In this document: positions 31,165 to 59,900 of the stretch, one piece after another | Layout: each line of letters opens with the position of its first letter | How positions within the stretch are numbered: the first letter of the stretch is position 1 | Assembly: GCF_009668025.1 (NCBI RefSeq) | Contig: NZ_WJXZ01000015.1 | Span: forward strand, 248,001-312,000 | Length of the DNA: 64,000 bases | Direction: 5' to 3' | Source: Larkinella terrae | GTDB lineage: Bacteria; Bacteroidota; Bacteroidia; Cytophagales; Spirosomataceae | Notes under the pieces: model-generated | Databases searched by the model: none | What the model saw: only the letters and a program-made list of their open reading frames with translations | Told to the model about the DNA's origin: nothing | Made by a program: the position numbers and the translations under genes

Positions 31165-31362
31165 AAATGGCTAAAAATGGTTGGATGGTTTTCATGGTTG
31201 AATGGTTCTAATGGTTAAAAATGGCTGAAGGATGGTTAAAATTCTACCAGCTGTTTAACCCTTTTTAGCCATTAAAAACCATTCAACCATGAAAACCGCC
31301 CTACCCTTTCTAACCATTAAAGCCATTCTTCAACCATCCAGCCATTCCAACCATCCAGCCTT
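31165..31362. repeat. Word palindrome of ATGGTTAAA / ATGGCTGAA repeats
   Basis: From 31165 to about 31245 the plus strand repeats AATGGCTAAA, ATGGTTGGATGG, ATGGTTGAATGG, AATGGTTAAA and the like; from about 31255 to 31362 it carries the complements (TTTTTAGCCATT, AACCATTCAACCAT, CAGCCATTCCAACCATC). It fills the divergent gap between the oxidoreductase and the DciA-like gene, so it cannot just be a terminator. Three other copies exist in the window. Confidence 0.8.
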
Positions 31363-31391
31363 GTTGGTAGCTAAAATTTTTCCGCAGTTGC

Positions 31392-31424
31392 TTTGCCATT
31401 CCTTCGGGTCGATCGTTACCTTTG
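31392..31424 (+). promoter_or_regulatory. Promoter of the DUF721 gene
   Basis: TTTG (31392-31395), 21-nt spacer, TACCTTTG (31417-31424): a complete Bacteroidota promoter, 20 nt before the ATG at 31444. Confidence 0.8.
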
Positions 31425-31443
31425 TAGCAAGACACCGTTTCGT

Positions 31444-31770
31444 ATGGCACAATATTATCGCTTTGACAAAGACAACGCTTCCCGACGCGCCGGGACGGTT
31501 GCACTGAAAGATGCCATCGGGCAAATGCTGAAGTCGTATCAACTGCAGACCCGGTTTAACGAAACGTACCTCGAAGCTTTCTGGGAGAAAATGATGGGCA
31601 AAGCCATTGCGTCGCGCACCAACCGGCTTTACGTCAAAGACCGCAAGCTGCACATCGAAATCAACTCCGCTCCCCTCCGCAGCGAACTCGTAATTGCCAA
31701 ACAGAAAATGATTCAGCTCATCAACCGCGAAATGGGCGCTGATGTGCTGGAAGACGTCATTTTTATCTGA
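31444..31770 (+). CDS. DUF721 / DciA-like protein
   Basis: 108 residues from ATG 31444 (MAQYYRFDKDNASR); the frame runs 17 codons further up but across the promoter. It matches DUF721: ALKDAIGQMLKSYQLQTRFNETYLEAFWEKMMGKAIASRTNRLYVKDRKLHIEINSAPLRSEL and KMIQLINREMG. DciA recruits the replicative helicase DnaB in bacteria that lack DnaC-type loaders, so this is the likely role. Its last 58 nt overlap the end of the GT87 gene on the other strand. Confidence 0.85.
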   Translation: MAQYYRFDKDNASRRAGTVALKDAIGQMLKSYQLQTRFNETYLEAFWEKMMGKAIASRTNRLYVKDRKLHIEINSAPLRSELVIAKQKMIQLINREMGADVLEDVIFI

Positions 31771-32900
31771 TCCGGCGCTTCCTGCGTCCACAATTCCCAT
31801 TGCAATCGGGCCCAAACCAGCATACAGCCAACAGCTTTAATGCGGTAGGGCACAAAAAAACCGTCCCGAATAAAGCGGGGGAAGATATCCGTTGGCGACA
31901 GTGAAGTGAATATAATCACGGTTAACAACAAGGCCCAGTCAAACCGGGTGGGTGATTCGAGCGTCAGCCACCAGATTGCCACGCCTGTAACGGCCAGCAC
32001 ATACGTCGGCGATTCGGCCATTTTGTTGAAAATAATGATAAAAAGCAGGAAGTAAGCAATCATTCGGCGCTGGAACAACAGATCTTTCCACAGGTTGACC
32101 CGGAGAAAAGGCAGGAGAAAAAGCACAATTCCGACGGCTTCCACCATGCGCAGATTGGCATCGGTTTTGGCCATCCCAAACCAGACTTCCAGAATTCCCA
32201 TCACCGAAACCAGTCGCCCCAAAGTACTGACCATCACCACCTTAAACCATTCCACGTATTCGCTCCCCAGACTGCTCAACGGAATGATCGTTGCGGGAGC
32301 CAGCGCAAACAAAACCGTCCAGACAGTCATGGCCAGCAGGAACTGCGGTTTTTTGGGGTAGAAAACGAAAAACAGAGCTGCCGTGATGCCGTAAAATTTC
32401 ACAAAACCGCAGAGAACGAAGAAAAAAGCCGCCAGCCAGACGCGCTCATTCCGCAGATGGTACAAGCCGAGCAACATTGCCCCGATAATCAGGTTGTTAC
32501 TCTGCATGTTCTGGGCCGTAACGAGCGCTTCCGGAAAAATGATCAGCAGCGCCATCCAGCGTTTTCGGGCGGCATTTTCCTCACCCTCCAGAAAATACCA
32601 GATTCCGGCGGCCAGCACGACCGAATTGATCAGGTTCCAGAAGAACACACCGAGGCCGATGGGCATGTAATAAAACGGCCCCATCAGCCAGGCAAACGTC
32701 GGGCTGTATTTGTAATTATCGGCGTATAAATCGGGGTGTAAACCGTAGATACTCTTGTCAAGTAGCAGATTATGAAAGGGTTTCGAAAACATCAGGTAAT
32801 TATTGATGCTACCCATCATGTACTTCTGAAAAGCCGCTCCGGTCAGAATAATAATGAACGCTGCCAGCAACCGGGGCAACGTCAGCCAACGTAAACTCAT
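31713..32900 (-). CDS. GT87-family (DUF2029) membrane glycosyltransferase
   Basis: 395 residues, about ten membrane helices. The first periplasmic loop holds GLHPDLYADNYKYSPTFAWLMGPFYYMP, where the acidic residues and YSP motif are typical of GT87 polyprenyl-phosphate-sugar-dependent mannosyl- or related transferases. It is last of three overlapping genes: the deacetylase stop overlaps this start by 4 nt (32897-32900). It may move a sugar from a lipid carrier, made by the GT2 enzyme upstream, onto an envelope acceptor. Acceptor unknown. Confidence 0.85.
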   Translation of the reverse strand: MSLRWLTLPRLLAAFIIILTGAAFQKYMMGSINNYLMFSKPFHNLLLDKSIYGLHPDLYADNYKYSPTFAWLMGPFYYMPIGLGVFFWNLINSVVLAAGIWYFLEGEENAARKRWMALLIIFPEALVTAQNMQSNNLIIGAMLLGLYHLRNERVWLAAFFFVLCGFVKFYGITAALFFVFYPKKPQFLLAMTVWTVLFALAPATIIPLSSLGSEYVEWFKVVMVSTLGRLVSVMGILEVWFGMAKTDANLRMVEAVGIVLFLLPFLRVNLWKDLLFQRRMIAYFLLFIIIFNKMAESPTYVLAVTGVAIWWLTLESPTRFDWALLLTVIIFTSLSPTDIFPRFIRDGFFVPYRIKAVGCMLVWARLQWELWTQEAPDQIKMTSSSTSAPISRLMS

Positions 32901-33694
32901 AGTTGTGAAGAGAATTGATTGGATTCCGAAAATTCCTGCATGGTCTGGAATTCGCCGTACGGAGCCAGGTAGCGCAACAGGGCCTCAACGCGGTCGAGCA
33001 ATCGCTCGTGCGAATACCGCCGGACATAAGCCGGAATTTTGGTGTAGTCCGACAGATTCGTAAACTCCCAGGGATGCACGTAAAGATTCAGAAAACCGTC
33101 GGTCCGCAGCGTGTTCATACACAGCCTTTTGTAGAGACCAAACGGAAAGTTTTTCAGGCTGAGCCAGAACAGGGGCAACCGCAACCGGGGCGTTACCGAG
33201 GCCGGAATGTGCAGAATATTCCCGCTCCGAAACGGTTTTCGCGGTTCCCGAAGGTGGTTGTAGCGCCCCGGCAGAAAGGTGGGATGCAGCGACGAATTGT
33301 AGCGGTATCCGGCCAGAAACAGGTCCGTTTCGTCGACGGCGGCCATGCGCGCCCGGCGAAAACCGACTACCTGCTGGCCCGTAATGGCTTCCAGGGTCCG
33401 GCGCGATTTCAACAAATCGGCGGGTTCGAACGTCGTGTGGTAATACCCATGTGACGCGATTTCATGCGTTTTAGCCAGCTTCCGAACCAGATCCGCTTCG
33501 TGAAAGGCGTAGTTGGCGGTCGTAAACAGCGTAGCCCGAACGTTCAGAGTTGCCAGCCGATCGGTCAGCAACCGGAGTCCGCGGGTCGAAACCACCAGCT
33601 GCTCATCGAGCGACAAATCGTGCCCATACTCCAGCGCCGTGTCGAATTCCTCGACATCGACCGTGAACATAATCTGACGGTTTACCGGTTCCAT
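32897..33694 (-). CDS. Polysaccharide deacetylase-family protein
   Basis: 265 residues, no signal peptide, so it acts in the cytoplasm. IMFTVDVEEFDTALEYG carries the catalytic Asp and metal Asp, and IASHGYYHTTFE the two His metal ligands (HGxxH). The later part resembles DUF3473 deacetylases of exopolysaccharide clusters (NILHIPASVTPRLRLPLFW, LYVHPWEF). Family enzymes remove acetyl or formyl groups from sugars, sometimes lipid-linked, like ArnD. It overlaps the GT2 gene before it (13 nt) and the GT87 gene after it (4 nt). Confidence 0.88.
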   Translation of the reverse strand: MEPVNRQIMFTVDVEEFDTALEYGHDLSLDEQLVVSTRGLRLLTDRLATLNVRATLFTTANYAFHEADLVRKLAKTHEIASHGYYHTTFEPADLLKSRRTLEAITGQQVVGFRRARMAAVDETDLFLAGYRYNSSLHPTFLPGRYNHLREPRKPFRSGNILHIPASVTPRLRLPLFWLSLKNFPFGLYKRLCMNTLRTDGFLNLYVHPWEFTNLSDYTKIPAYVRRYSHERLLDRVEALLRYLAPYGEFQTMQEFSESNQFSSQL

Positions 33695-34671
33695 GCCACT
33701 GTTTCAACGCTGACGACTTTTTCCGCCAGATTCGATTCATGAACGAGGTATGTAGGTCGGTGTTTAACTTCCTGGAACGCTTTGCCGAGGTAGATTCCGA
33801 TGATTCCCATCATAATAAACTGAATACCGCCGATCAGCACAATCAGCAGCACAATGGAAGTCCAGCCGGAAACCGTATTGGCCGTGAAATATTTTTCGTA
33901 GAGCACTTCCGCGCCGAACAGTAACGCAAACAGAAACATGCCGAAACCCAGCACCACCGATAAATAGAGCGGTTTTGTGGTAAACGACGTGATCCCCATC
34001 GTCGCCAGATTGAACATCTTGCGGAACGAATACTTGCTTTTTCCGGCATAGCGCTGGGCGGGCTGGTACTCGACCCGGCTTTGGCGGAAACCCATCCAGG
34101 AGATCATACCGCGCAGGAACAGATCCGTTTCCTTGTATTGCTTCAGGCTGTCGACCACCTTGCGGTCGAGCAGGCGGAAATCGGCTGCGCCCTCCTCCAG
34201 ATTGACATCGGAAACCGCCCGAATAAACCGGTAAAACCAGCTCGACGTCTTTCGTTTCATCAGGGGTAGCGTTGGATCGGCCTTCCTAATGGCACACACC
34301 ACGTCGTAGCCTTCCTCCCACTGCGCAATCATCGTCGGAATCAGTTCGGGGGGGTGTTGTAAATCGGCATCGAGGCAGATGACGCAACTGCCGGTTGCGT
34401 GATCAAAACCGGCCCGGAGAGCGGCCTGGTGGCCAAAATTGCGGGAGAAGGACAGGTAGCGAACGGAGTCATACAAGCTGCTCAGTTGCTGCAACACATA
34501 GAGCGTATCGTCGGTGCTGCCATCGTCGATAATCAGGATTTCAAACTCCCGATACGGCGCTAACACACTTTCCAATCGACTTACCAGAACGGGTAAGTTC
34601 TCCTCTTCATTGTGCGCCGGAACAACGATACTGATTTTACCAGTCCGTTGGTTCATTAATACATTCGGCAT
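33682..34671 (-). CDS. GT2 glycosyltransferase (dolichyl-phosphate mannose synthase/ArnC type)
   Basis: 329 residues. GT-A domain: ISIVVPAHNEEENLPVLV, EILIIDDGSTDDTLYVL, CLDADLQHPPELIP (DxD) and DFRLLDRKVVDSLKQ. Two membrane segments at the C-terminus (about 230-257 and 270-295) are typical of polyisoprenyl-phosphate glycosyltransferases (ArnC, GtrB). It probably charges undecaprenyl phosphate with a sugar. First gene of the operon with the deacetylase and the GT87 enzyme. ATG at 34671; a second ATG five codons later is possible. Confidence 0.9.
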   Translation of the reverse strand: MPNVLMNQRTGKISIVVPAHNEEENLPVLVSRLESVLAPYREFEILIIDDGSTDDTLYVLQQLSSLYDSVRYLSFSRNFGHQAALRAGFDHATGSCVICLDADLQHPPELIPTMIAQWEEGYDVVCAIRKADPTLPLMKRKTSSWFYRFIRAVSDVNLEEGAADFRLLDRKVVDSLKQYKETDLFLRGMISWMGFRQSRVEYQPAQRYAGKSKYSFRKMFNLATMGITSFTTKPLYLSVVLGFGMFLFALLFGAEVLYEKYFTANTVSGWTSIVLLIVLIGGIQFIMMGIIGIYLGKAFQEVKHRPTYLVHESNLAEKVVSVETVAWNR

Positions 34672-34973
34672 TTTATCTTTGTGTACGAGATGGTAGGAAG
34701 ATACTCTTTTGAATATCGGTAAACAATAATAAGTATTTTTGCCGCCACTTCAAGTAGGTAGTTCCCATCACGCCAAAAATTGAAGTTTAAGTTCTGCAAT
34801 ATCAACGAGTTACCTGAAATTAATTTTTTATTAGAAATATCTGGCAGGGGTTTAACTAACTGGTTATCTTCTCTGTATGCGTGCTGTAATTACATCTTAT
34901 AAGGGAATGAAAACGCCTGTTCAAACCGATTTGAAGCCAGCGCGGATTCTGCTCCGGAAAATTAGAAATTAAT
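34672..34973 (+). other. Gap before the LD-carboxypeptidase with a short basic reading frame
   Basis: 302 nt, AT-rich. No promoter box found. A 31-codon frame opens with ATG at 34877 (MRAVITSYKGMKTPVQTDLK..., very basic, ending KIRN) and stops at 34970-34972, one base before the TTG start of the carboxypeptidase gene. Whether it is translated is unknown; it might be a leader peptide. The rest of the gap shows nothing I recognise. Confidence 0.3.
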
Positions 34974-35879
34974 TTGACACAGCCTCCTTTTTTACAACCC
35001 GGTCAGCGTGTGGGCGTTATGGCCATGGCCAGCCGTCTGGAGTATGACTCTCTCGAACCGGCTTTCCGGATTCTTCGCGACGACTGGCAACTGGACGTCG
35101 TTGAAGGTGAATCGCTCCGGAGCAGCTATTTCCAATTTGCCGGTGACGACGACCTGCGCCGACGCGACCTGCAACAGATGCTCGACGATCCGGACATTCG
35201 GGCCATTTTCTCCGCCCGTGGGGGCTACGGCAGCTACCGGATTCTTGATCAACTGGACTTTACCCGATTCCTGAAAAATCCGAAATGGATCATCGGTTTT
35301 AGCGACATCACGGTGATTCACTGCCATTTGCACCGGTTGGGCGTGCAGAGCCTACATGCCATCATGCCCCGCTTATTCGGGAATGAAGGCGTCGCCGACT
35401 CCATCGAAACCTTACGCCAGTGCCTTTTTGGGGAATCCATTGCTCCCTACACCAGCCCGGCCAATTCCCTCAACCGGGCCGGAACGGCGGCCGGTCAACT
35501 GGTTGGCGGCAATCTGGCGCTGCTGTTGCACACCCTAGGAACACCCTCGGACATTGACCTGACCGGCAAGCTTTTCTTCATTGAAGACATCGACGAAACG
35601 CTTTTTTCGCTGGATCGCATGATGATTCAGCTCCGACGCTCCGGTCGACTCGCGAATCTGGCCGGGATGGTGGTCGGGCAGTTCACGGACATGCGCATCA
35701 ATGAAACGGCGCCCTTCGGAAAAACCGCCAACGAGATCATTGCCGAGCATCTTGGCGGGTACAATTTCCCGGTTTGCTTTGATTTCCCGGTCGGCCATGT
35801 CGCCCGAAATCTGGCCATGCCGGTTGGGAAGGATGCAGAATTGGAGGTCAATGAGCAAGGAAGTCGATTGACTTTCTAA
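34974..35879 (+). CDS. LD-carboxypeptidase, S66 family
   Basis: 301 residues. No ATG is available before the conserved N-terminus (FLQPGQRVGVMAMAS); the TTG at 34974 is the only plausible start, since an in-frame stop lies at 34932. ARGGYGSYRILDQLDF, IIGFSDITVIH (nucleophile Ser110), FIEDIDE (Glu) and FDFPVGHVARN (His) give the S66 triad. It releases the terminal D-Ala from tetrapeptides of muropeptides in the cytoplasm, in peptidoglycan recycling. No recycling genes adjoin it. Confidence 0.92.
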   Translation: MTQPPFLQPGQRVGVMAMASRLEYDSLEPAFRILRDDWQLDVVEGESLRSSYFQFAGDDDLRRRDLQQMLDDPDIRAIFSARGGYGSYRILDQLDFTRFLKNPKWIIGFSDITVIHCHLHRLGVQSLHAIMPRLFGNEGVADSIETLRQCLFGESIAPYTSPANSLNRAGTAAGQLVGGNLALLLHTLGTPSDIDLTGKLFFIEDIDETLFSLDRMMIQLRRSGRLANLAGMVVGQFTDMRINETAPFGKTANEIIAEHLGGYNFPVCFDFPVGHVARNLAMPVGKDAELEVNEQGSRLTF

Positions 35880-35880
35880 T

Positions 35881-35996
35881 GAAAAATATCCAATGTAAAA
35901 TGATGAATGTAAAAGTGACTGGCGCGGATAGGCAACGTCTAAGTTAGGAAATATCGAATACTGAATATCGAATAACGAATAACTAATAACGAAGGA
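35881..35996 (+). repeat. Word repeats upstream of the four-helix-bundle gene
   Basis: The first part (about 35885-35915) repeats AATGTAAAATGATGAATGTAAAA; the second (35951-35994) repeats ATATCGAATACTGAATATCG and AATAACGAATAACTAATAACG. The end TAATAACGAAG (35984-35994) is nearly complementary to CTTCGTTATTCG just after the gene (from 36376), so the coding region is flanked by inverted repeats. Confidence 0.6.
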
Positions 35997-36359
35997 ATGA
36001 ATGAGCGGAGGTATGATCTGGAAGATCGACTTATCAATTTTTCGGCAGAATTGATTGCGGTTGTTGAGGAACTGCCACCAACGAAAGCTTCCAGTCATCT
36101 TGGTGGTCAACTGCTACGATCTGGCACAGCTCCTGCCCTTCATTATGGTGAGGCTCAAAGCGCTGAATCCCAAAAAGATTTTATCCACAAGATGAAAGGT
36201 GCGCTCAAAGAACTCCGGGAATCCCATATCAATTTACGCATACTTGAAAAAGTAAACCTGCTTGGCTCAGCAGATTTACCCACATTAGTAGAATGCAACG
36301 AATTAATTCGAATCTTCAAAAAAAGCATCGAAACCGCGGAACGAAATCTCTCCAAGTAA
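35997..36359 (+). CDS. Four-helix-bundle (23S rRNA intervening-sequence protein-like)
   Basis: 120 residues, helical: YDLEDRLINFSAELIAVVEELPPTKASSHLGGQLLRSGTAPALHYGEAQSAESQKDFIHKMKGALKELRESHINLRILEKVNLL. This is the small TIGR02436-type family first found as the ORF in 23S rRNA intervening sequences and related to DGR accessory proteins. No rRNA or reverse transcriptase is present in the window. The gene is flanked by inverted word repeats and followed by a large nested palindrome. Biochemical function not known. Confidence 0.88.
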   Translation: MNERRYDLEDRLINFSAELIAVVEELPPTKASSHLGGQLLRSGTAPALHYGEAQSAESQKDFIHKMKGALKELRESHINLRILEKVNLLGSADLPTLVECNELIRIFKKSIETAERNLSK

Positions 36360-36400
36360 ATTGCTACGAGCCCAACTTCGTTATTCGTTAATTTATCGCC

Positions 36401-36606
36401 AACTATGAGATTTTTGACCGCGTAGCGGTTGAATGTTTGTAGAAGAATGTCAATTTGAGCTAATAAGCGTGCCTTTAGGTACGCAATCAGTTTAGGCTGT
36501 AGCGTACCTAAAGGCACGCGGGAGGCATTTGGTAACGGCTTTTCTACAAACATGTCGTGCCTATGGCACTTAATCGACTCATAATCAATCACCAAATCTC
36601 ATAGTT
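36401..36606. repeat. Nested 206-bp palindromic element
   Basis: Three pairs of inverted arms are nested: AACTATGAGATTT at 36401-36413 with its exact complement at 36594-36606; TGTTTGTAGAA at 36434-36444 with 36542-36552; and an 18-mer starting GCGTGCCTTTAGG at 36467-36484 with 36502-36519. A further unpaired GTGCCTATGGCAC palindrome sits at 36557-36569. This shape, without a coding sequence, suggests a MITE- or REP-like element. It lies between the convergent IVP-like and M20 genes. Confidence 0.8.
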
Positions 36607-36615
36607 CACGTTAAA

Positions 36616-37947
36616 TTATTTTTTCTTCACACTTGCCGTTCCGGTTCCTTTCCACTGCTCCATATAATCAACGGTCAGCTGGCAAAGGGCTTTAACACCC
36701 AGGCCAAAACCGCTTTCGTCGATGTGAAAGTCCGGCGTGTGGTGCGGGGCCGCATCTTCCAGTTTGGTGCCTTTCGGCATACCGCCCAGGAAAAAGAAAA
36801 AACCGGGTACTTTTTGCTGAAAGAACGAAAAGTCTTCGGCACCGGTGTCGAGCGGGCGGATTTGCACATGATCCTTTCCGGCCACGGCTTCGAGCGTCGG
36901 CACCATCTGGTCGGTCAGCGCCGGATCGTTGTACGTCACCGGATACATCACGTCGATTTTCACATCGGCCCTGGCTCCGGCACTTTCGGAGATATTCGTC
37001 GCCACTTCGTTGATCCGGCGATGAATGGTTTTCTGCATTTCCGGCGTAAACGAACGAATGGTTCCGATCATGTTGACTTCTTCCGGAATGATGTTCTGCC
37101 GGATTCCGCCGTGCACCGCGCCCACCGTCACCACCGCCGGGAATTCCGTAATCGGCAGATTCCGGCTGACGATCGTTTGCAGCCCCATCACAATCTGCGA
37201 GCTCGTCACGATCGGATCGACGCCCGACCACGGAGCGGCCCCGTGCGTCTGTTTTCCTTTCACCTTAACGCTGAAAAAATCAACGGCCGCCATCGTCGCG
37301 CCCGGCCGGTATTTAATCGTACCCACTTCGGTTTGCGAATTGATATGCAGGCCAAAAATGGCGTCGACTTTCGGATTCTCCAGTACGCCTTCCTTCACCA
37401 TCAACTGCGCTCCGCCTTCTTCACCCGCCGGTGGCCCTTCTTCGGCGGGCTGGAAAATAAACTTAACGGTGCCTTTCAGGTCGTTTTTGACACTGGCCAA
37501 CACCTCGGCCACGCCCATCATGATGGCCACGTGTGAATCATGTCCGCAAGCGTGCATCACCCCGGTTTTCTGACCGTTGAACTCGGTGGTTACGGTCGAT
37601 TTAAATGCCAGATCGCCCCGTTCGGTGACCGGCAAACCGTCCATATCGGCCCGTAGCGCAACAACGGGGCCCGGTTTTCCGCCTTTCAAAATACCGACGA
37701 CGCCGGTTTTGGCCACATTGGTTTTTACTTCGATTCCCAACGAATGCAGGTGAGCGGCTACTTTGGCGGAGGTCTGAAATTCGCGGTTGCCCAATTCCGG
37801 ATTCTGGTGAATCTCACGACGCCAAGCAATGACCTTTTTTTCCAGGCCATCGGCGGTTTTATTCACCTGGCTTTTCAGGGGCGACTGAGCCTGCAAAGCA
37901 AAAGGCAAAAGAGTGCAAAAAAGTGCGTAAACAGTCTTATTACTCAT
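36616..37947 (-). CDS. M20-family amidohydrolase/peptidase, exported
   Basis: 443 residues with a signal peptide ending at LQAQ (about residue 21). Motifs: WRREIHQNPELGNREFQTS, VALRADMDGLPV, THACGHDSHVAIMMGVA-like HACGHDSH (metal), FIFQPAEEGPPAGEEGG (general base Glu), and TGAEDFSFFQQKVPGFFFFLG. It belongs to the hippurate/IAA-amino-acid hydrolase group with two metals. Periplasmic location suggests turnover of N-acyl amino acids or peptides from outside. Substrate unknown. Confidence 0.92.
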   Translation of the reverse strand: MSNKTVYALFCTLLPFALQAQSPLKSQVNKTADGLEKKVIAWRREIHQNPELGNREFQTSAKVAAHLHSLGIEVKTNVAKTGVVGILKGGKPGPVVALRADMDGLPVTERGDLAFKSTVTTEFNGQKTGVMHACGHDSHVAIMMGVAEVLASVKNDLKGTVKFIFQPAEEGPPAGEEGGAQLMVKEGVLENPKVDAIFGLHINSQTEVGTIKYRPGATMAAVDFFSVKVKGKQTHGAAPWSGVDPIVTSSQIVMGLQTIVSRNLPITEFPAVVTVGAVHGGIRQNIIPEEVNMIGTIRSFTPEMQKTIHRRINEVATNISESAGARADVKIDVMYPVTYNDPALTDQMVPTLEAVAGKDHVQIRPLDTGAEDFSFFQQKVPGFFFFLGGMPKGTKLEDAAPHHTPDFHIDESGFGLGVKALCQLTVDYMEQWKGTGTASVKKK

Positions 37948-38215
37948 TTTTAAACGTATTTTGTAAGTACAAATGATTCACATCAGCGAGACAAGCGGAT
38001 TGTTTTGTTTTCTAATTACGGTAAATTTTAACAAAAAATGGCAATAGAATATGCCAATAAAAGGGTTTTGCATTGCGTATGATAAATTTTGAGTAAAATG
38101 GAAAAATACAACAATCGCCAGATGCGTTGTTCACTCCATGAAAACCCAGGAAGCAGTTAATTATCAGACAATCTAATAGTTACCCCTATTTCCAAACTCA
38201 TCTCGCCCGGGATGC

Positions 38216-38249: not shown

Positions 38250-38388
38250 CGTCAACGACAAAGGTTTTATTTTATTTATTATTAACTTGATCATATATCT
38301 GCCAATCTTAATAAGACATTTTTATAAGTACATTTAAAAAAATTGTCGCCAAACTATTTTTTTGGTTTATTTATTGCGGATATAGAAG

Positions 38389-38396: not shown

Positions 38397-38435
38397 CATC
38401 CATTTTTTTTACGTTCATCCAAACATAACCTATCT

Positions 38436-51129: not shown

Positions 51130-51247
51130 TTTTAATGAACCGCACGGGCGGCCCCGAATGAATAATTTACAATGAATAATGAAGGGTTAACGCACGTTGA
51201 TTGATGATTTATTGTTCATTATTCATTGTTAATTGTTCATTACACAT
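51130..51247 (+). repeat. Word palindrome between sufD and sufS
   Basis: AATGAATAATTTACAATGAATAATGAA (about 51158-51184, given as two words AATGAATAATT and CAATGAATAATGAA) faces TTCATTATTCATTG and TTAATTGTTCATT at 51215-51241. The stem ends just before the sufS ATG (51248), so it may mask or expose the start. Confidence 0.65.
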
Positions 51248-52974: not shown

Positions 52975-53420
52975 CAATCAACGAGAAACAAGACGAAATT
53001 ATCGAAGAATTTGACCTCTTTGACGATCAGCTCGATAAGACGCAGTATATCATTGATTTAGGTAAGAAATTGCCGCCAATGCCCGTGCAGTTCCAGACGG
53101 ATAATAACCTGATTCGCGGGTGTCAGTCGAAAGTGTGGCTGCATTCCGAACTGAAGGGCGATACTGTTCAATTTGAAGCCGATAGCGAGCCGACGGCCCA
53201 GATCAGTAAAGGGCTGGTGAGTTTACTGATCCGGATTCTGTCGAACGAAAAAGCCGAAGACATTGCCAAAGCCGACCTGTATTTTATTGATCGGATCGGA
53301 TTGAGTAACTTAGTAACCTCACGGCGCGCGGGTGGGCTGGCGTCGATGATTCAGCAGATGAAGCAGTTTTCCGCAGCCCACAGTGATACAAACCGGCCCG
53401 CCGAACAGTCAGCGATTTAA
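52971..53420 (+). CDS. sufE: Sulfur acceptor protein SufE
   Basis: 149 residues. FDLFDDQLDKTQYIIDLGKKLPPMP and NNLIRGCQSKVWL with active Cys51 match SufE/YgdK. KGLVSLLIRILSNEKAEDIAKADLYFIDRIGLSNLVTSRRAGGL is the rest of the family core. It accepts persulfide from SufS and activates it. The start overlaps the stop of the toxin gene by 4 nt. The order suf S - TA - E is not normal; the usual order has sufE directly after sufS. Confidence 0.95.
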   Translation: MTINEKQDEIIEEFDLFDDQLDKTQYIIDLGKKLPPMPVQFQTDNNLIRGCQSKVWLHSELKGDTVQFEADSEPTAQISKGLVSLLIRILSNEKAEDIAKADLYFIDRIGLSNLVTSRRAGGLASMIQQMKQFSAAHSDTNRPAEQSAI

Positions 53421-53430
53421 GCAGAAAGTT

Positions 53431-53742
53431 ATGAATGACGAAGAATTGAAAGAAGAAGTAGTCAAAGCTCTCAAAGGCGTGTATGACCCGGAAATTCCGG
53501 TTGATGTCTACGAATTGGGGCTGATCTACGAAATAAAAATATTCCCGATCAATAACGTTTATATCCTGATGACTTTGACGTCGCCCTCCTGCCCGTCGGC
53601 AGGAACCATTCCGGGCGAGATCGAAGCCAAAGTACGGGCGATTGAAGGCGTTAACGACGTGAGCGTGGAGTTGACTTTCGACCCGCCCTACACGACCGAA
53701 ATGATGTCGGAAGTAGCGAAGCTCGAACTGGGTTTTATGTAA
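53431..53742 (+). CDS. DUF59 / MIP18-like Fe-S maturation protein (SufT-like)
   Basis: Start ATG 53431 (MNDEELKEEVVKALKGVYDPEIPVDVYELGLIYEIKI); 103 residues. LTSPSCPSAGTIPGEIEAKV is the DUF59 Cys motif and VNDVSVELTFDPPYTTEMMSEVAKLELGFM is the typical C-terminus. Such proteins act in Fe-S cluster maturation or transfer, often with Suf. It follows sufE after 10 nt. Confidence 0.9.
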   Translation: MNDEELKEEVVKALKGVYDPEIPVDVYELGLIYEIKIFPINNVYILMTLTSPSCPSAGTIPGEIEAKVRAIEGVNDVSVELTFDPPYTTEMMSEVAKLELGFM

Positions 53743-53752
53743 AAATGAACGG

Positions 53753-53885
53753 TTAGGTGGCTTGAATGGTTAAAATGGTTTCATGGATGGCTAAAAATGG
53801 TTAAACGGCTTTCTGTTATTCCAATGATCCAGTCACTTTTTAACCAGTTAACCATAAAACCATTTTTAACCATTACAATCATAAA
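53753..53885. repeat. Word palindrome of AATGGTTAAA / AACCATTTTTA
   Basis: Plus-strand words GAATGGTTAAAATGGTTT and AAAAATGGTTAAACGG (to about 53810) face TTTTTAACCAGTTAACC, AAAACCATTTTTAACC (to 53877). It separates the DUF59 gene and the bacilliredoxin gene, both plus strand. Confidence 0.8.
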
Positions 53886-53914
53886 TAGTAACTCAAACTT
53901 TTAAACTACATACA

Positions 53915-54340
53915 ATGTATCCTCCACATTTAGTTGCTCCGATGAAGGACGACCTGGTTAGCGCCGGTTTCGAGGACCTGAGCACGGCCGAGAAGGTCGA
54001 TGAGGCCATGGAAAATGCCGAAGGCACCATGCTGGTGGTTGTCAACTCGGTTTGCGGATGTGCGGCTGGCGCGGCCCGTCCGGGTGTGAAAGCGGCCTTG
54101 AATCTGAGCGGTATCAAGCCCGATAAACTGGTGACGGTTTTCGCCGGTGTCGATTTTGAAGCCACGGCCCGGATGCGTGAGTATTTGCTGCCTTATCCGC
54201 CGTCATCACCGGCCATTGGTATTTTCAAAGATGGTGAACTGGTTCACTTTATCGAACGGCACCACATTGAAGGGCGCTCGGCGCAAATGATCGCGCAGCA
54301 TCTGGAAATGGCTTTCGAAGAATTCTGCGAAAAAGCCTGA
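53915..54340 (+). CDS. Bacilliredoxin (BrxA/BrxB family)
   Basis: 141 residues. The CGC active site is at 47-49 (VVNSVCGCAAGAARPG), with RMREYLLPYPPSSPAIGIFKDGELVHFIERHHIEGRSAQMIAQHL following, as in YphP/YqiW proteins. These reduce bacillithiol or other low-molecular-weight thiol mixed disulfides. The gene follows the suf operon, consistent with thiol and sulfur redox work, though a word palindrome and a gap of 172 nt divide them. Ends at a terminator. Confidence 0.93.
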   Translation: MYPPHLVAPMKDDLVSAGFEDLSTAEKVDEAMENAEGTMLVVVNSVCGCAAGAARPGVKAALNLSGIKPDKLVTVFAGVDFEATARMREYLLPYPPSSPAIGIFKDGELVHFIERHHIEGRSAQMIAQHLEMAFEEFCEKA

Positions 54341-54367
54341 CAAGTAAATTACCATTCTAGTCAGTCG

Positions 54368-54399
54368 AAACCGGTCGTGAATCACGACCGGTTTTTTAT
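54368..54399 (+). terminator. Intrinsic terminator after the bacilliredoxin gene
   Basis: AAACCGGTCGTGA (54368-54380) and its perfect complement (54382-54394) with a run of Ts. Confidence 0.88.
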
Positions 54400-54493
54400 T
54401 TGCTCAAATCTGTTTAAATTAAGTCATCATCATTTAATTTCGCTATTGTAACCGATATTAAACAAATAGTTCCTATTTGCTCTGTTCTCTAGC

Positions 54494-56026
54494 ATGAAGA
54501 AAAACTACTATCTCGCTATTTTCTATTTTTTGTATTCATCCCTTAGTTTAGCCCAATCTATACACCCTCACCAGGCATCTGCCTACGCCGAAGTTGGCGT
54601 ACTCGGCTCAACCGCTGAGCGAACTCCTTTCTGGTTAAGAGCCAATCAATTCGGGATAATTCCTTTGTCGGCACCAGGTGGCACACTGCGGCTGGGTGTA
54701 AAAGGGGATTATTTGCTGACCGATACCACGTCCGTCCGTTCGTTTACCCACCCGCACAGGGAATGGACGCTTTCGTACGCAGCAGAAGGTGTTGGCAATG
54801 CCGGAAAAACCAATCAGCTTCTGCTGCCGGAGGCCTATATTAAATTAACTCATCGACGAATCGAGCTGGTAATCGGCCGGCGCAGGGAATCCATCGGTCT
54901 TGTCGATTCCAGCCTTTCGACCGGTTCGCACAGCTATTCCGGAAATGCATTGCCAATGCCTAAAATTCAACTCGGTACCCGGGGATTCGCGCCACTGGGC
55001 CGCCGGGGTACGGTGGCCATCAGCAGCATGTTTTCGCACGGCTGGTTTGGGAAAACCCCGTTCGTACAGGGCTCTTACCTGCATCAGTTTCAATTTATGC
55101 TGCGGATTGGAAAACCATCGTGGCCGGTGCGGTTTTACGGTGGGGGGCTCAAAAATGCGCAATGGGGTGGGCGCTCGGACTTTTTACCATCTTACCTGGC
55201 CGTAAACGGTCAACTGCCCAGCCGTCTGAGTGACTTTCCGAATGTAGCTTTTGCCATTCGCACCAATGGGATCAACAATCCACGCATTACGGCCTATGAT
55301 TATGTCAATCTATACGGCAATCACGTTGGCCAGTACGACTTTGCCACTGAGCTTCAGATGTTCAGGGGGTTCAACCTGATGATGTACCACCAACATCCGT
55401 TCGAGGATCTGACCGGTATTGTTTTTCAAAATTTTCCCGACGGTTTGTACGGAATTCGGCTCCGAACCAAAACCCGGCCCAAATCGGCATTTCACCTTAA
55501 TACACTCGTTCTGGAAATACTTTCTACCGTTTACCAAAGCGGTCCGCCTTCCAAAAAAAGCCTAACATTTGGCATTGCCGGCGATAACTACTTTAACAAC
55601 TCACAATACCAGGAAGGCTGGGTATACCGCAATCAGGTAATCGGGACGCCTTTTATGACCCGCCTGGCTGATGCCAAACCGGAATACCGCATTGGCTACG
55701 TCATCAATAACAACCGGGTTCAGGTTGGCCATGTCGGCCTGAGTGCCACTATTGCTCAGAAAATTGAACTGGTCGGAAAGTTCTCTTACAGCCGCAACCG
55801 GGGCACATACCAGACCCCCTTACCGAATTCGCCAACCCAATTCTCCTCCATCCTCCAGCTTGGTTTACCGGTTTCCTGGCTGGGCGGCAGTTGGCTGACG
55901 GCTGCGGTTTCGGTGGACTCGGGGCAGTTGTACGAAAATGCAACGGGCGGTTTTATCAGCTTACGCAAAACCATCTGGCAGACCCCGAACACGCCCACGC
56001 CTAAAAAACCGGTCGGCAGGCTGTAG
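54494..56026 (+). CDS. Capsule assembly Wzi-family outer-membrane protein
   Basis: 510 residues; signal peptide ending near SLAQS. Motifs: SAYAEVGVLGSTAERTPFWLRANQFGIIP, LLLPEAYIKLTHRRIELVIGRRRESIGLVDSSLSTGSHSYSGNALPMPKIQLGTRGF, a beta-barrel thereafter. Wzi anchors capsular polysaccharide at the surface. No capsule cluster is near. Its stop codon directly abuts the stop of the convergent dipeptidase gene (56026/56027), leaving no terminator between. Confidence 0.9.
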   Translation: MKKNYYLAIFYFLYSSLSLAQSIHPHQASAYAEVGVLGSTAERTPFWLRANQFGIIPLSAPGGTLRLGVKGDYLLTDTTSVRSFTHPHREWTLSYAAEGVGNAGKTNQLLLPEAYIKLTHRRIELVIGRRRESIGLVDSSLSTGSHSYSGNALPMPKIQLGTRGFAPLGRRGTVAISSMFSHGWFGKTPFVQGSYLHQFQFMLRIGKPSWPVRFYGGGLKNAQWGGRSDFLPSYLAVNGQLPSRLSDFPNVAFAIRTNGINNPRITAYDYVNLYGNHVGQYDFATELQMFRGFNLMMYHQHPFEDLTGIVFQNFPDGLYGIRLRTKTRPKSAFHLNTLVLEILSTVYQSGPPSKKSLTFGIAGDNYFNNSQYQEGWVYRNQVIGTPFMTRLADAKPEYRIGYVINNNRVQVGHVGLSATIAQKIELVGKFSYSRNRGTYQTPLPNSPTQFSSILQLGLPVSWLGGSWLTAAVSVDSGQLYENATGGFISLRKTIWQTPNTPTPKKPVGRL

Positions 56027-57223
56027 CTACTGCGGCACTTTGGCCTGTCCCAATACCCGTAGCAAGTTACCGCCCCAGATTTTGGCGATGTCCTGTTCTG
56101 AATAGCCTTTCCGCACCAGTTCCAGGGTCAACGCTTCAATCTCGCTCACATCTTCCATTCCGTTGACGCCCCCACCGCCGTCGAAATCACTGCCAATCCC
56201 GACGTGATCGATGCCGGCCAGACGTACAATGTAATCGATGTGTTTCACAATGTCCGAAACACTCGCCCGCTCGTAGGCATACCGCTTCTGGATCGAATCT
56301 TCCTTCGCATCCAGCTTTGCCCGCATTTCCGGGGTTACCACCCGACCCACGCCCGCCATCCGAATCGAATTCAGGGCCTGACGGTGTTCGTCTGACGGTT
56401 TTCTGAGGTAATCGGTTACAAAATTGACCTGCACAACACCTCCTTTGGCCGCAATGGCTTTGATCATTTCGTCGGTCATGTTTCGCGGGAAATTGCAGAG
56501 CGCGCGGGCGTTGGAGTGCGACGCAATCAGGGGCGCTTTCGACAATTCCAGCGCGTCGTAGAACGATTTATCGGAAACATGGGAAACATCGATCAGAATG
56601 CCTAACCGGTTCATTTCCTGCACAACCTGCCGCCCAAACGGGCTCAGGCCGTTATGAGTCGGGCCATCGGGGTCGGTGGCCGAATCGCAAATGGCGTTGT
56701 TGGCAAAGTGCGACAGTGTAATGTACCGACAACCCAGATCGTAATACTGTTTCAGCAACGACAAATCTTCGCCAACCGGATACCCGTTTTCCATTCCGAT
56801 AAAAACCGCCCGTTTCCCGGCTTTTTTAATGCGGTAGGCATCGGCGGGCGTAGTCGCCAGTTCAGCCAGATCGGGGTGTTTTTTCAGCGCGTCGCTGATG
56901 CTTTGAAAAATCTTGAGGGCTTTGGCTTTAGCCTCGGCGTGGCCTTCCGGGGTGCGGGGCCCCTGCGCCATGTAGACCGCAAAAAACATGGCGTCCATCC
57001 CACCCTCTTTCATGCGGGGAAAGTCAATCTGCGACTTATCGCGCACCCGGTCGTGCCGCACGCCCACGTCAAAACCGTCCTTCACCATGTTGATCGGGGC
57101 GTCGGCATGCGTGTCGAGCGTCAGCACCCGCTGGTGAATTTTATGGGCTTTCTTCGTCAGTCGGTCGGCAGGCAGGAAGAAAATAGTAAGGAGCAGAAAT
57201 AGGAAAAGAATGGGGTTCATCAC
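56027..57223 (-). CDS. Membrane dipeptidase (peptidase M19), exported
   Basis: 398 residues; the start (MMNPILFLFLLLTIFFLPADR) has two Met, either possible, then a signal peptide. LTLDTHADAPINM (metal HxD), IGMENGYPVGEDLSLLKQYYDLGCRYITLSHFANNAICDSATD, LIDVSHVSDKSFYDAL, PLIASHSNARAL, VGIGSDFDGGGGVNGMEDVSEIEAL show the binuclear zinc site of renal-dipeptidase-type enzymes. It cleaves dipeptides, often D-amino acid ones. No partner genes are next to it. Confidence 0.94.
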   Translation of the reverse strand: MMNPILFLFLLLTIFFLPADRLTKKAHKIHQRVLTLDTHADAPINMVKDGFDVGVRHDRVRDKSQIDFPRMKEGGMDAMFFAVYMAQGPRTPEGHAEAKAKALKIFQSISDALKKHPDLAELATTPADAYRIKKAGKRAVFIGMENGYPVGEDLSLLKQYYDLGCRYITLSHFANNAICDSATDPDGPTHNGLSPFGRQVVQEMNRLGILIDVSHVSDKSFYDALELSKAPLIASHSNARALCNFPRNMTDEMIKAIAAKGGVVQVNFVTDYLRKPSDEHRQALNSIRMAGVGRVVTPEMRAKLDAKEDSIQKRYAYERASVSDIVKHIDYIVRLAGIDHVGIGSDFDGGGGVNGMEDVSEIEALTLELVRKGYSEQDIAKIWGGNLLRVLGQAKVPQ

Positions 57224-57369
57224 GTTAGGTTAAATCCCAAGATAGAAAAGAATCGTTAAATTATCGGCATACCAGCCGTTTTAAAACCACCCGGAAGCCG
57301 ATTCTATTCTGATTTATCCTGATCTTTGACTCTGGTTTCAACCGCTTATTTCAAAAAATAAATTCAAAT

Positions 57370-58122
57370 ATGGCCCAAACTGCCCTGATCACCGGCGCTA
57401 CTTCCGGCATCGGTCTTGCGATTGCCAACGCATTTGCCAAACTCAACTACCGACTCATTCTGTGTGGCCGTCGTCAGGACCGGCTGGATGAATTGCAACA
57501 GACGCTCAGTGAATCGGTCGAATGCCATACGCTTAATTTTGACGTTCGCGACCGAGCTGCCGTCGAAACCGCCCTGGCTTCCCTACCCGATGCCTGGCAA
57601 ACCATCGACGTGCTTGTCAACAACGCCGGCAACGCCCACGGCATGGGGCCCATTCAGGAAGGCGACATTGACGACTGGGACGCGATGATCGACGGCAACG
57701 TGAAGGGATTATTGTATGTTACCCGCGCGGTTTCACCGGGAATGGTCAAAAATGGCCGGGGTCACATCGTCAATATCAGTTCGATTGCCGGAAAGCAAAC
57801 CTATGCCAACGGCGGGGTTTATTGCGCATCGAAAGCCGCTGTGGAAGCCCTGAGCGAAGGCATGCGACTGGATTTAACCCAGCACGGCATCAAAATTACC
57901 AATGTGGCTCCCGGCGCGGTCGAAACCGAGTTTTCGCTGGTCCGTTTCAAGGGTGACGAGGAGCGTGCCGCCAAAGTTTACGCCGGTTTCAAGCCCCTGA
58001 CTGCCACCGACATCGCCGACGCTGTAGCCTACGCCGTTTCTGCTCCGGCCCACGTCACCATCGCCGACATCACGATCCTGGCTTCCGCCCAGGCCGCAGC
58101 CACAACCATTCATCGGAAATAA
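57370..58122 (+). CDS. SDR-family NAD(P)-dependent oxidoreductase (YdfG-like)
   Basis: 250 residues. TGATSGIGLAIANAF binds NADP; VNNAGNAHGMGPIQEGDIDDWDAMIDGNVKGLLYVTRAV is the YdfG/hydroxy-acid dehydrogenase region; NISSIAGKQTYANGGVYCASKAAVEALSEGMRLDL gives Ser-Tyr-Lys; PGAVETEFSLVRFKGDEERAAKVY is typical of YdfG. It oxidises serine-type or 3-hydroxy acids. The gap before it is AT-rich; a palindrome follows. Confidence 0.9.
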   Translation: MAQTALITGATSGIGLAIANAFAKLNYRLILCGRRQDRLDELQQTLSESVECHTLNFDVRDRAAVETALASLPDAWQTIDVLVNNAGNAHGMGPIQEGDIDDWDAMIDGNVKGLLYVTRAVSPGMVKNGRGHIVNISSIAGKQTYANGGVYCASKAAVEALSEGMRLDLTQHGIKITNVAPGAVETEFSLVRFKGDEERAAKVYAGFKPLTATDIADAVAYAVSAPAHVTIADITILASAQAAATTIHRK

Positions 58123-58124
58123 AT

Positions 58125-58258
58125 TGAATGGTTAAATGGTTTTGAATGGTTTGATGGTTTAAATGGCTAAATGGTTGGAATGGTTGAAGGATGATTAAAA
58201 TGCCGACAGCCATTCAACCATTTTTTAACCATTTAACCCTCCAAAACCACCTTAAAAT
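58125..58258. repeat. Word palindrome in a convergent gap
   Basis: Words GAATGGTTAAATGG, GAATGGTTTGATGG, AAATGGCTAAATGGTTGG to about 58195; then complements CAGCCATTCAACC, TTTTTTAACCATTTAACC to 58235. It lies between the SDR and the thioesterase gene. Confidence 0.8.
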
Positions 58259-58750
58259 TTATTGAAAAATCATGCAGGTCGAGGTAGCGTGGGCGTAGAG
58301 TTTGCCCTGAGCGTCTTCGACACGCGCTTCGGCGGTTGCCACGCTTCGGCCGACATGGATGACGGTTCCGGTGCAAATCAATTTGCCGGTTTTGGCCGTC
58401 ACCGGGCGTACCAGATTGACTTTCAGTTCAAGCGTGGTGTAGCCCACACCAGCCGCCAGTTTGGTATGAATCGCGCAACCCATTGCCGAGTCGCAAAGGG
58501 TGCTCAATAAACCGCCGTGCACGACGCCGATCGGATTGTAATGAAATTCGGAAGGTATAACGGCAAAAACCGCCTTTCCGTCTTCCATTGCCACTGGATC
58601 AAAATCCAATGTCTGGCAGATGGGTGGAAGCGGATTGATACCGTCCAGGATGCTTTGTAGATAATCTAATCCAGACATGGTTTTGGCGGCCTGTGCGCCC
58701 TGCATGGGATCTTCCCAATTATACGATCGTTCTCGTTCGTCTGCTGCCAT
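58259..58750 (-). CDS. PaaI-family thioesterase (hotdog fold)
   Basis: 163 residues. The hotdog motif FHYNPIGVVHGGLLSTLCDSAMGCAIHTKLAAGVGYTTLELKVNLVRPVTAKTGKLICTGTVIHVGRSVATAEARVEDAQGKLYAHATSTCMIF has the HGG and Asp residues. N-terminal 40 residues (MAADERERSYNWEDPMQGAQAAKTM) are extra. It hydrolyses acyl-CoA thioesters, substrate unknown. Probably monocistronic. Confidence 0.9.
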   Translation of the reverse strand: MAADERERSYNWEDPMQGAQAAKTMSGLDYLQSILDGINPLPPICQTLDFDPVAMEDGKAVFAVIPSEFHYNPIGVVHGGLLSTLCDSAMGCAIHTKLAAGVGYTTLELKVNLVRPVTAKTGKLICTGTVIHVGRSVATAEARVEDAQGKLYAHATSTCMIFQ

Positions 58751-58840
58751 TAGTGATTTGAAGAATTGTAGTAAAAAGTAAACTTACTAAAATACAAAAA
58801 TTGTACGTATTTTGAAAACAAAAACCGCCCGGTTTGTCTC

Positions 58841-59773
58841 TCAAAAAGAGGTGTTTTTAGCCGTCAATAAATTCGCCAAAACGCCCTCTTTCAACGAATA
58901 GGTCGACACCCGAATCTGCCGAATCCCGTACGCCCGCAACACGTAATCGATCAGGCAAACGCCCACTACAATCATGTCGACTCGCAGTTCGATCATGCCC
59001 GGTAACTGCATCCGTTCCGCGTGGTTTCGGGTCAGCAGCAGGTTATACAAACGCTGAAATTCGCTCAGAGGCAGCTCGAAAGCCGTCTGGTCCGCGTCCG
59101 GCAAATAACCTTTTTCATGCATAAACTGCAAATCGACCAGCGTATCAAATGAGCCTGAGGAGCCCACAAGCACGACGGGCGCGTATTGGTGAACCGCATT
59201 CGTGAGTGGCAAAAGCTGTTCCTGAAAAAACCGATTCAACCGATTTACGGCCGCCGGGCTGATCGGGTCGGTTTCCATAAACCGCTCCAGCAACCGCTGA
59301 CCGCCAATTTCAAAACTTTGCTTCCAGTAAATCCGTTGCTGCGTACACAGAATAAACTCGACACTGCCCCCGCCGATGTCGACCACCAGCGCCATCTGAT
59401 CGTCGAGGGTTCCGGCGGCCCGCACCCCGGCGTAAATGTACCCGGCTTCTTCGTCGCCCGAAATGGAGCGAATGATCAGACCGGTTTCCTGACGAATCCG
59501 TTCGATAAATTCCGCCTGATTTCCGGCGTTTCGGATCGCACTGGTTCCGATCGCAACCACCTGATCGACCGGGATTTGATGCTGATCGATCACCGTCCGG
59601 AAATACCGCAAAACCGCTACCGCCCGTTCAATGGCTTCGTCGGTAATAAACCCCTGATTGATCCCGGATTTGCCAATTTTTGCCGGGCGGCTTTCCCGGA
59701 AAAGCGTCTGACCTGCCTTCGTAATCATCAAATGAAAGGTATTCGTCCCGAGGTCAATAACGGCTTGCTTCAT
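58841..59773 (-). CDS. Ppx/GppA-family phosphatase (exopolyphosphatase-like)
   Basis: 310 residues, i.e. only the two actin-like N-domains without the C-terminal HD part of E. coli Ppx/GppA. VIDLGTNTFHLMI (P-loop), VVAIGTSAIRNAGNQAEFIERI, DEEAGYIYAGVRA, VVDIGGGSVEFIL and GSSGSFDTLVDLQ are family motifs. It removes phosphate from polyphosphate or pppGpp. The gap to rpsU is divergent and holds another word palindrome. Confidence 0.92.
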   Translation of the reverse strand: MKQAVIDLGTNTFHLMITKAGQTLFRESRPAKIGKSGINQGFITDEAIERAVAVLRYFRTVIDQHQIPVDQVVAIGTSAIRNAGNQAEFIERIRQETGLIIRSISGDEEAGYIYAGVRAAGTLDDQMALVVDIGGGSVEFILCTQQRIYWKQSFEIGGQRLLERFMETDPISPAAVNRLNRFFQEQLLPLTNAVHQYAPVVLVGSSGSFDTLVDLQFMHEKGYLPDADQTAFELPLSEFQRLYNLLLTRNHAERMQLPGMIELRVDMIVVGVCLIDYVLRAYGIRQIRVSTYSLKEGVLANLLTAKNTSF

Positions 59774-59777
59774 GCAA

Positions 59778-59900
59778 ATCTGATGGTTTTCAATGGTTAA
59801 ATGGCTAAAAATGGTTAAATGATATCAATGGCTGACGGGATAAAATGGCTCATAACCATCTAACCATTTTTAGCCATTCAACCATCCGGCCATTCAAACA
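59778..59900. repeat. Word palindrome in the ppx-rpsU divergent gap
   Basis: Words ATGGTTTTCAATGG, TTAAATGGCTAAAAATGG and AATGGCTGACGG to about 59850; then complements AACCATCTAACC, TTTTTAGCCATTCAACC and CCGGCCATTCAAAC to 59900. It stops 20 nt before the rpsU -33 box. Confidence 0.8.

Follow-up and report, generated by a model that had tools for sequence, protein, structure and literature searches.

Word-built intergenic palindromes of Larkinella terrae: candidate stop-proximal hairpins that keep their slots while their words are recomposed

Within a 64,000-nucleotide (nt) stretch of the Larkinella terrae genome (contig NZ_WJXZ01000015.1, positions 248,001 to 312,000; the window, Table 1), four gaps between genes are occupied by long imperfect palindromes composed of the word ATGGYT and its complement ARCCAT. 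They belong to a wider class with a common build, in which two arms of head-to-tail words (~7-10 nt per step) face inward around a loop. Comparing the host genome (G000; 7.85 Mb, 22 contigs) with its relatives in a set of nine Larkinella genomes (G000-G008), we found that the slots of these palindromes are shared between orthologous genes, and that the palindrome is kept while its arms are recomposed, some loops flip and the vocabulary is sometimes exchanged. The explanation towards which we lean, modestly, is that the four loci represent one vocabulary of intergenic palindromes that are kept as stop-proximal hairpins and rewritten by template switching and slippage.

An earlier reading of the stretch, made from its letters only (the sequence-only reading), had described four word-built palindromes at these gaps, and this description was borne out. 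Elements 1 to 4 contain 16, 7, 10 and 10 exact ATGGYT/ARCCAT words, respectively. When the window was resampled 100 times with an order-1 Markov model, the largest cluster had 3 words, and 94 of the resamples had no cluster of 3 at all. With the four gaps shuffled by mononucleotide, the mean word counts were 0.28, 0.16, 0.14 and 0.50 (maxima 3, 3, 3 and 5). Both controls speak against the refuting condition named in the sequence-only reading, words no more frequent than base composition predicts. All four elements form an inward-facing palindrome predicted to fold as a single long hairpin on either strand; in the clusters listed with exact words on both arms ATGGYT comes first and ARCCAT second, the exceptions being single stray words. 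The steps between word starts inside the arms are slightly wider than the 7-10 nt first given, mostly 8-12 nt with a few of 17 and 27 nt. The orientations described for the neighbouring genes (divergent at loci 1 and 4, same-strand at locus 2, convergent at locus 3) hold as well.

A search for word-dense gaps in the whole genome and in related genomes, as the same reading had advised, showed that the vocabulary extends far beyond the window within G000 and is rare beyond the genus. A triple-word pattern matched G000 81+63 = 144 times (the reversed control pattern, 0+0), and about 38 ATGGYT places were recognized among the matches listed, 30 by a hairpin-centre pattern and 8 more from two other patterns, a few of them being weak. 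When 121 genomes of the family were searched, triple-word matches numbered 157 in G006, 135 in G000, 133 in G003, 64 in G002, 27 in G008, 17 in G005, 1 in G004 and 0 in G001 and G007, all of them Larkinella; outside the genus, matches occurred in 13 family genomes, with no more than two in each except G039, which has 19. Among 395 genomes of the phylum, 55 had at least one match to the hairpin-centre pattern, with 79 in G000 and 8 in the runner-up, G377. These counts place the ATGGYT vocabulary almost exclusively in some Larkinella species. In a species-level genome collection, a search with an exact 22-base ATGGTT pattern found nine matching stretches, every one in Larkinella records. In some palindromes of G039 the outer words are ATGACTGA or ATGATTGA and the inner ones ATGGYT, an order that in one of them (L250) is the same for both arms; these palindromes look as if one word drifted into another inside a single hairpin. 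Separately, the eight matches of G377 are accompanied by GATTGTT-like words, and the reversed control pattern matched six times each in G035 and G122, perhaps owing to other word arrays.

Orthologs of three genes adjoining the four loci are present in all nine Larkinella genomes, and the slots of the window loci hold ATGGYT palindromes in G000, G002, G003 and G006, with some in G005. To extend this comparison, 93 clusters with at least five words were reduced to 81 by removing 9 genome_contigs records and 3 duplicates, and to 80 elements by requiring two arms; these gave 67 ortholog pairs, which are not independent. Among the 80 elements compared, an orthologous element was present for 21/29 of those in G000, 22/24 in G003 and 16/18 in G006, counts that are lower bounds, as orthology was sought only among pattern-found, fetched elements. 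Aligned by locus between relatives, as the sequence-only reading had suggested, the elements thus stand at shared slots, with arms recomposed from a common vocabulary: between G002, G003 and G006 words are added to the arms, dropped from them or altered, with flanks that remain 91-98% identical. Word order and length vary from locus to locus, and an element's own partner arm matches it just slightly better than the arms of other loci do (permutation p 0.04 for 29 elements of G000 and p 0.14, not significant, for 24 of G003; 0/5000 for 18 of G006). When only the inner 32 nt were considered, p was 0.006 in G000, 0.0002 in G006 and 0.03 in G003. That own arms barely beat foreign ones, and that 21 of the 29 G000 elements have an orthologous element, agrees with the earlier view of the loci as recompositions rather than copies of one element.

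In G008, the nearest relative by flanking proteins (90-98% identity), two of the four window slots are decayed, one element is lost and one slot holds a palindrome of quite different words (GGAGGAAGGG...); the slot of palindrome 3 has other words there. At the slot of palindrome 4, G008 retains a fragment, ggataggaacacggatt, which resembles one arm of another vocabulary.

ATGGYT is one among about a dozen vocabularies with the same build. A word-blind palindrome scan detected 14 palindromes in the window; in 400-kb stretches of G000:C6 and G008:C12 it detected 67 and 58, respectively. Many of them are built alike from other words: AATGAAC/AATTAAC, GAGTTAA, GTTTWCG, GCGGAG, CTGATTAA, GACSATT, GGAAGGGAG, GAGACAAGA, GGATTGAACGGATT and more, these classes being our own regular expressions, with many palindromes of at least 55 nt left in the class 'other'. 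At single slots the whole vocabulary can differ between species. The slot of 14203 holds AATGAA words in G000 and G008, GAGTTAAG words in G002, G005 and G006, and, in G003, a weak palindrome with four exact ATGGTT words (score 23). The slot of 21772..21859 holds, in G008, GTTTTCGG words surrounding a GCTGACGC core, and yet another slot has GCGGAG words in G003, G005 and G006 and GTTTTCGG words around the GCTGACGC core in G002. In a comparison of 157 palindrome pairs, 14 of which were dropped for a palindrome shorter than 45 nt, pairs without detectable similarity (z<3) between flanks of 91-96% identity made up 4/18 for G006/G002 (one of them like a repetitive extragenic palindrome (REP), one borderline at z 2.3), 2/16 for G003/G002 and 1/16 for G003/G006, some exchanges being the same slot in two comparisons. 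Dissimilar palindromes were commoner between distant species (e.g., 6/13 for G005/G003). The slot at position 95017 of the G006 stretch was left out, as its G003 row apparently belongs to a paralogous slot nearby, and none of the 67 G000:C6 palindromes had an ortholog in G008:C11, these two stretches not being orthologous. In the non-subscription literature that was covered, we found no description of exchangeable word palindromes.

As to how the words are rewritten, the loops are informative. Among 16 ATGGYT loci compared between G002, G003 and G006, 13 had a recognizable loop (a score of at least 17 in one orientation and a difference of at least 7; hand count from the table), and in 3 of the 13 the loop is inverted relative to the flanks: the inverted and direct scores are 39.5 vs 18 (L139/L159), 27 vs 7 (L153/L161) and 25 vs 6 (window locus 4, where the G003 loop is inverted with respect to those of G006 and G002). 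Of 28 pairs with a recognizable loop in the general palindrome set, 6 show an inversion; locus 4 is counted among them once more, and two of the 6 come from a single slot. These inversions rest on draft assemblies, in which short palindromes can be misassembled. Template switching is described as yielding arm homogenization and spacer inversion (PMC8604942; this and the other published sources are represented here by excerpts). Between distant species, the two arms of one ATGGYT locus match each other better than they match across species (26.6 vs 24.1), the within-locus match being larger in 34/45 non-independent pairs. We propose, with fair confidence, that template switching across the hairpin during replication would copy one arm onto the other and invert the loop, and that slippage between tandem words would rewrite the arms further. 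The sequence-only reading had likewise suggested copying across a hairpin; the loop inversions at 3/13 loci and the co-changing arms of other vocabularies (a biased set) speak for it, while homogenization of ATGGYT arms is weak, none being seen between close species and a modest degree between distant ones.

The slots keep a palindrome even where its words change. In three comparisons that share species, a gap with a word palindrome had a palindrome in the sister species in 13/13, 12/12 and 11/12 cases; gaps without a palindrome had one in the sister in 4/27, 3/27 and 4/27, and gaps with other palindromes kept one in 15/25. This constancy of slots whose words are reshuffled, flipped or swapped suggests that the presence of a hairpin counts for more than the words that form it. 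It also bears on the possibility that the palindromes are neutral filler, whereby hairpin-templated and slippage mutations would fill the unconstrained spacer from a stop codon to the next promoter with no function at all. Such filler would suit elements that start at a stop codon and finish ahead of the next start, and a gap like that of locus 3, which is almost entirely element between two stop codons. We nevertheless think it improbable, while giving it serious weight: word-palindrome gaps kept their palindrome in 36/37 comparisons, even with changed words, as against the 15/25 of other-palindrome gaps, and bacteria tend to delete neutral spacer. The confidences that we attach to the various explanations are not exclusive, and neutral filler shares the mutational half of the one we favour.

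The distance to the facing stop codon has a median of 2 nt for the named vocabularies, with 48/57 within -10..15 nt, compared with a median of 36 nt and 5/33 for short hairpins, which behave as classical terminators. ATGGYT elements in same-strand gaps (G000, G003 and G006) lie at a median of 6 nt from the stop, 38/47 of them within -10..15 nt, and 44/47 are closer to the upstream stop than to the next start. For this sample, 12 loci were left out, namely three duplicates and the loci that hold the window elements or their orthologs in G003 and G006, and 2 locus-edge elements were set aside; omitting the orthologs of loci 1 and 4 makes divergent elements of G003 and G006 look scarcer than they are. 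The context counts relied on genes called by a codon-score script, which missed the 58259-58750 frame with the class of locus 3 unaffected, and gene calls, palindrome thresholds and vocabulary classes were all simple.

Hairpins behind genes could be bidirectional intrinsic terminators, and these are indeed long and stable; moreover, the named vocabularies are under-represented in divergent gaps (3/44 vs 69/356 gaps, p 0.04), and U-rich runs occur somewhat above background (7/57 vs 3% of control windows). Against this stand the scarcity of such runs relative to short-hairpin gene ends (7/57 for the named vocabularies and 1/9 for ATGGYT, vs 16/33), the position of the word palindromes (~2 nt behind the stop, short hairpins at ~36 nt) and the lack of depletion of ATGGYT in divergent gaps (2/7, p 0.63), which make this explanation quite unlikely. 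Compared with intrinsic terminators in general, the word palindromes are alike in being hairpins behind a gene, yet they mostly lack a U-tract, lie too near the stop and are far longer. The statement of the sequence-only reading that termination alone is insufficient is thus upheld, given a U-tract at 1/9 ATGGYT gene ends and two of four loci in divergent gaps. Two features lay outside the view of that reading: the recurrence of the build in other vocabularies, and the stop codon that most elements adjoin.

Returning to stop-proximal hairpins, we propose with moderate confidence that the slots are kept because a strong RNA hairpin directly after a stop codon would be of benefit, through an effect on the ribosome as it terminates or on the 3' end of the mRNA, much as is reported for stop-proximal REPs in Escherichia coli, where REPs no more than 15 nt from the stop codon stall ribosomes and lower translation (PMC12306157, citing an earlier study). 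If any words that fold would serve, their spelling would be expected to drift. Rewriting of the hairpins is, in our view, fairly well supported, and a function for them is inferred.

Several observations weigh against this proposal. In a smaller sample, 4/9 ATGGYT gene ends are within -10..15 nt of the stop. Two of the four window loci and 5/31 G000 ATGGYT elements lie in divergent gaps, where a role at a 3' end cannot apply (the 31, window loci included, divide into 22 same-strand, 4 convergent and 5 divergent). Two of the five fall inside the window, which makes the sample of the sequence-only reading an unusual one; in a redundant set that counts orthologs repeatedly, 8/20 ATGGYT palindromes are divergent. 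Elements such as those at loci 1 and 4 either call for a different explanation or are passengers, and element 4, which ~10 nt separate from the start codon of the minus-strand gene, may be located in the leader of that Ppx/GppA gene. As for rewriting, the within-locus match of ATGGYT arms between close species is 29.2 vs 29.5 across species and is the larger in 10/22 pairs; in our reading, inverted inner arms raise the cross score in this comparison, and we do not count it as support. In the general set, arms match better, on average, within a locus than across species in 14/14 species pairs, but that set was selected for palindromy, which favours the result, and compensatory selection would look alike. 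Template switching within a hairpin also leaves unexplained why the same words recur at dozens of loci and how vocabularies are exchanged, and free spacer between a stop and the next promoter could yield the same positions without function.

How one vocabulary came to occupy many slots has several possible answers: copying from hairpin to hairpin, unseen mobile elements or exchange by recombination. The sequence-only reading had suggested a REP-like element and a search for a Rayt/TnpA-like gene, i.e., a REP-associated tyrosine transposase (RAYT). Such genes do exist, three of them (PF01797; L001, L002 and L003) in G000, and they lack ATGGYT clusters. Across the nine genomes, none of 28 PF01797 loci (27 of them above the family cut-off, one locus ending early at a contig end) has a cluster of at least three ATGGYT words at a distance of up to ~1.5 kb. 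The three G000 genes are flanked, as read by eye, by palindromic words of their own, GTCGCG..CGCGAC, AAACCGTT..AACGGTTT and CCGAGGGTTG.., apparently separate REP families. Spread by a RAYT is thus not supported, with PF01797 flanks in G000 and in the genus free of ATGGYT clusters, other words beside the G000 genes and 21/29 G000 elements having an orthologous element. The ATGGYT elements share no conserved short consensus palindrome, as their order and length vary by locus, and extragenic placement near gene 3' ends, typical of REPs, is found in same-strand gaps (44/47), yet 5/31 G000 elements are divergent. The GCTGACGC core holds GACG, the complement of CGTC, which like GTAG is a terminal tag of REPs; this is only a lead, and spread by an unseen enzyme of another kind is possible.

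More broadly, the palindromes could be mobile hairpins, similar to REPs or to miniature inverted-repeat transposable elements (MITEs), each vocabulary forming a family of its own, moved by an unseen enzyme with a preference for hairpins already in place or for the 3' ends of genes; an exchange would then be a new insertion together with loss of the old element. Whole vocabularies do change at single slots, other families come and go (e.g., a CCCCTAAAGGGG type in G006 absent from the same place in G002), and the GCTGACGC core recurs in palindromes at 1.47 per kb vs 0.09 overall (16-fold), mostly centrally (77% of 35 positions), predominantly in GTTTWCG palindromes, and in opposite orientations at some ATGGYT loci. 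We regard mobile hairpins as unlikely all the same, considering the absence of words at the 28 RAYT-type loci, the different palindromic words flanking the G000 RAYT genes, the lack of a fixed word order common to ATGGYT elements and the orthologous places of 21/29 of them in G000. Furthermore, ten slot alignments, read by eye only, contained no clean insertion junction for word palindromes. A blastn search against plasmids gave no match for one ATGGYT element and three other palindromes.

Of note, a GC-rich core, GGCTGACGC..GCGTCAGCC, or close variants of it, is central in some palindromes of ATGGYT and of other vocabularies (L080, L061, L139, L140, L159 and L170). In addition, CCCCTAAATCCCCTAAAGGGG-type palindromes occur at several places in the G006:C1 stretch (L297-L301) and not at the orthologous places of G002.

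A transposase would be dispensable if gene-end slots each needed a long hairpin, of any of the dozen or so vocabularies, and if hairpin-to-hairpin copying during replication spread and replaced the vocabularies: a stalled strand would switch to another hairpin, copy it and return. This is a speculative extension that we consider rather doubtful; were it true, ATGGYT would be one such vocabulary, which some lineages of Larkinella maintain while it decays in G008.

Alternatively, a protein that recognizes ATGGYT might bind the palindromes as arrays of sites, as the word is better kept than the spacers or the order, and the step is near a helical turn. However, binding needs neither the inward order nor the hairpin geometry, and unrelated words occupy the same slots in sister species, so we hold this to be very unlikely.

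Among known systems, the closest parallels to stop-proximal hairpins are REPs and bacterial interspersed mosaic elements (BIMEs), which are likewise extragenic palindromes near gene 3' ends in many copies (PMC12306157, PMC3733652, as excerpted), and most same-strand-gap elements here lie no more than 15 nt from the stop, the REP position said to affect translation. They differ in that ATGGYT has no fixed consensus, its tandem-word arms span 54-202 nt from first to last word vs the 20-40 bp given for a REP, no RAYT association was found at the PF01797 loci, and vocabularies are exchanged at a fixed slot. Quasipalindromes and template-switch sites are alike in spacer inversion and, in part of our data, in arms that change together (PMC8604942, PMC8794818); the events known from these excerpts are in yeast genes and RNA genes, whereas ours concern intergenic slots, tandem-word arms and vocabulary exchange. 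The TAACTGA heptamer arrays of Beggiatoaceae, Cyanobacteria and Bacteroidetes, as far as the excerpt of PMC4679880 describes them, are also intergenic ~7-nt words, mixed in some species, with patchy distribution and changes by whole units. They are direct repeats of one exact word, mainly upstream of start codons in the main genome, unlike the degenerate words, inverted halves, positions mostly behind stops and steps mostly of 8-12 nt of ATGGYT. Finally, chloroplast spacer palindromes (PMC2903610) share palindrome-associated inversion and belong to another genome, with word arrays not mentioned in the excerpt.

Extragenic palindromes are usually explained as copies of mobile elements or as terminators. 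In the present case, the position is kept and the sequence is interchangeable even between close relatives, which makes it possible to ask whether stop-codon hairpins are selected as structures irrespective of their sequence, and whether template switching during replication is able to create hairpins, invert them and swap them throughout a genome.

Table 1. Palindromes and neighbouring genes in the window (window coordinates)
Feature	Coordinates	Strand	Details
ATGGYT palindrome 1	31165..31362	no strand	+ words 31167-31237, loop ~31238-31266, - words 31267-31354; divergent gap
ATGGYT palindrome 2	53762..53878	no strand	+ words 53766-53802, - words 53850-53873; same-strand gap, stop at 53742 precedes
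ATGGYT palindrome 3	58123..58258	no strand	+ words 58128-58185, - words 58208-58232; convergent gap, stops at 58122 and 58259
ATGGYT palindrome 4	59783..59885	no strand	+ words 59783-59850, - words 59854-59885; divergent gap
Palindrome of AATGAAN/AATTAAN words	14203..14314	no strand	same build; abuts stop of - frame 14315-15688
Palindrome of NTTCGNT words	21772..21859	no strand	
Palindrome of CAGTTTTC/GGTTTTC words	27501..27605	no strand	
Palindrome of AATGAAT/AATTTAC words	51157..51241	no strand	
Palindrome of GAGATGTGAGACAAGAGAC words	62681..62729	no strand	
Neighbour of palindrome 1	29612..31132	-	GFO/IDH/MocA-type oxidoreductase
Neighbour of palindrome 1	31444..31770	+	DciA-domain protein
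Upstream neighbour of palindrome 2	53431..53742	+	FeS_assembly_P domain protein
Downstream neighbour of palindrome 2	53915..54340	+	Pfam Disulph_isomer family
Neighbour of palindrome 3	57370..58122	+	short-chain dehydrogenase
Neighbour of palindrome 3	58259..58750	-	thioesterase-superfamily protein
Neighbour of palindrome 4	58841..59773	-	Ppx/GppA phosphatase

Regarding the neighbours, the oxidoreductase beside palindrome 1 probably has its start codon near 31087. To the right of palindrome 4, a short plus-strand frame near 59990 reads MLIINVKENESIDKALKRF.., which we take to resemble ribosomal protein S21, and the gene after it encodes a tyrosine recombinase. At the Rfam gathering threshold, no known RNA family matched at the palindromes of the window, the sole match being an S-adenosylmethionine (SAM) riboswitch (RF00162) elsewhere, at 29145-29262 on the minus strand with 66.3 bits. 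A segment of ~17 kb (about 18334-36618 of the window) is inverted relative to its flanks in G008:C12, with differing palindrome types near both of its ends (18414-18560 and 36467-36519).

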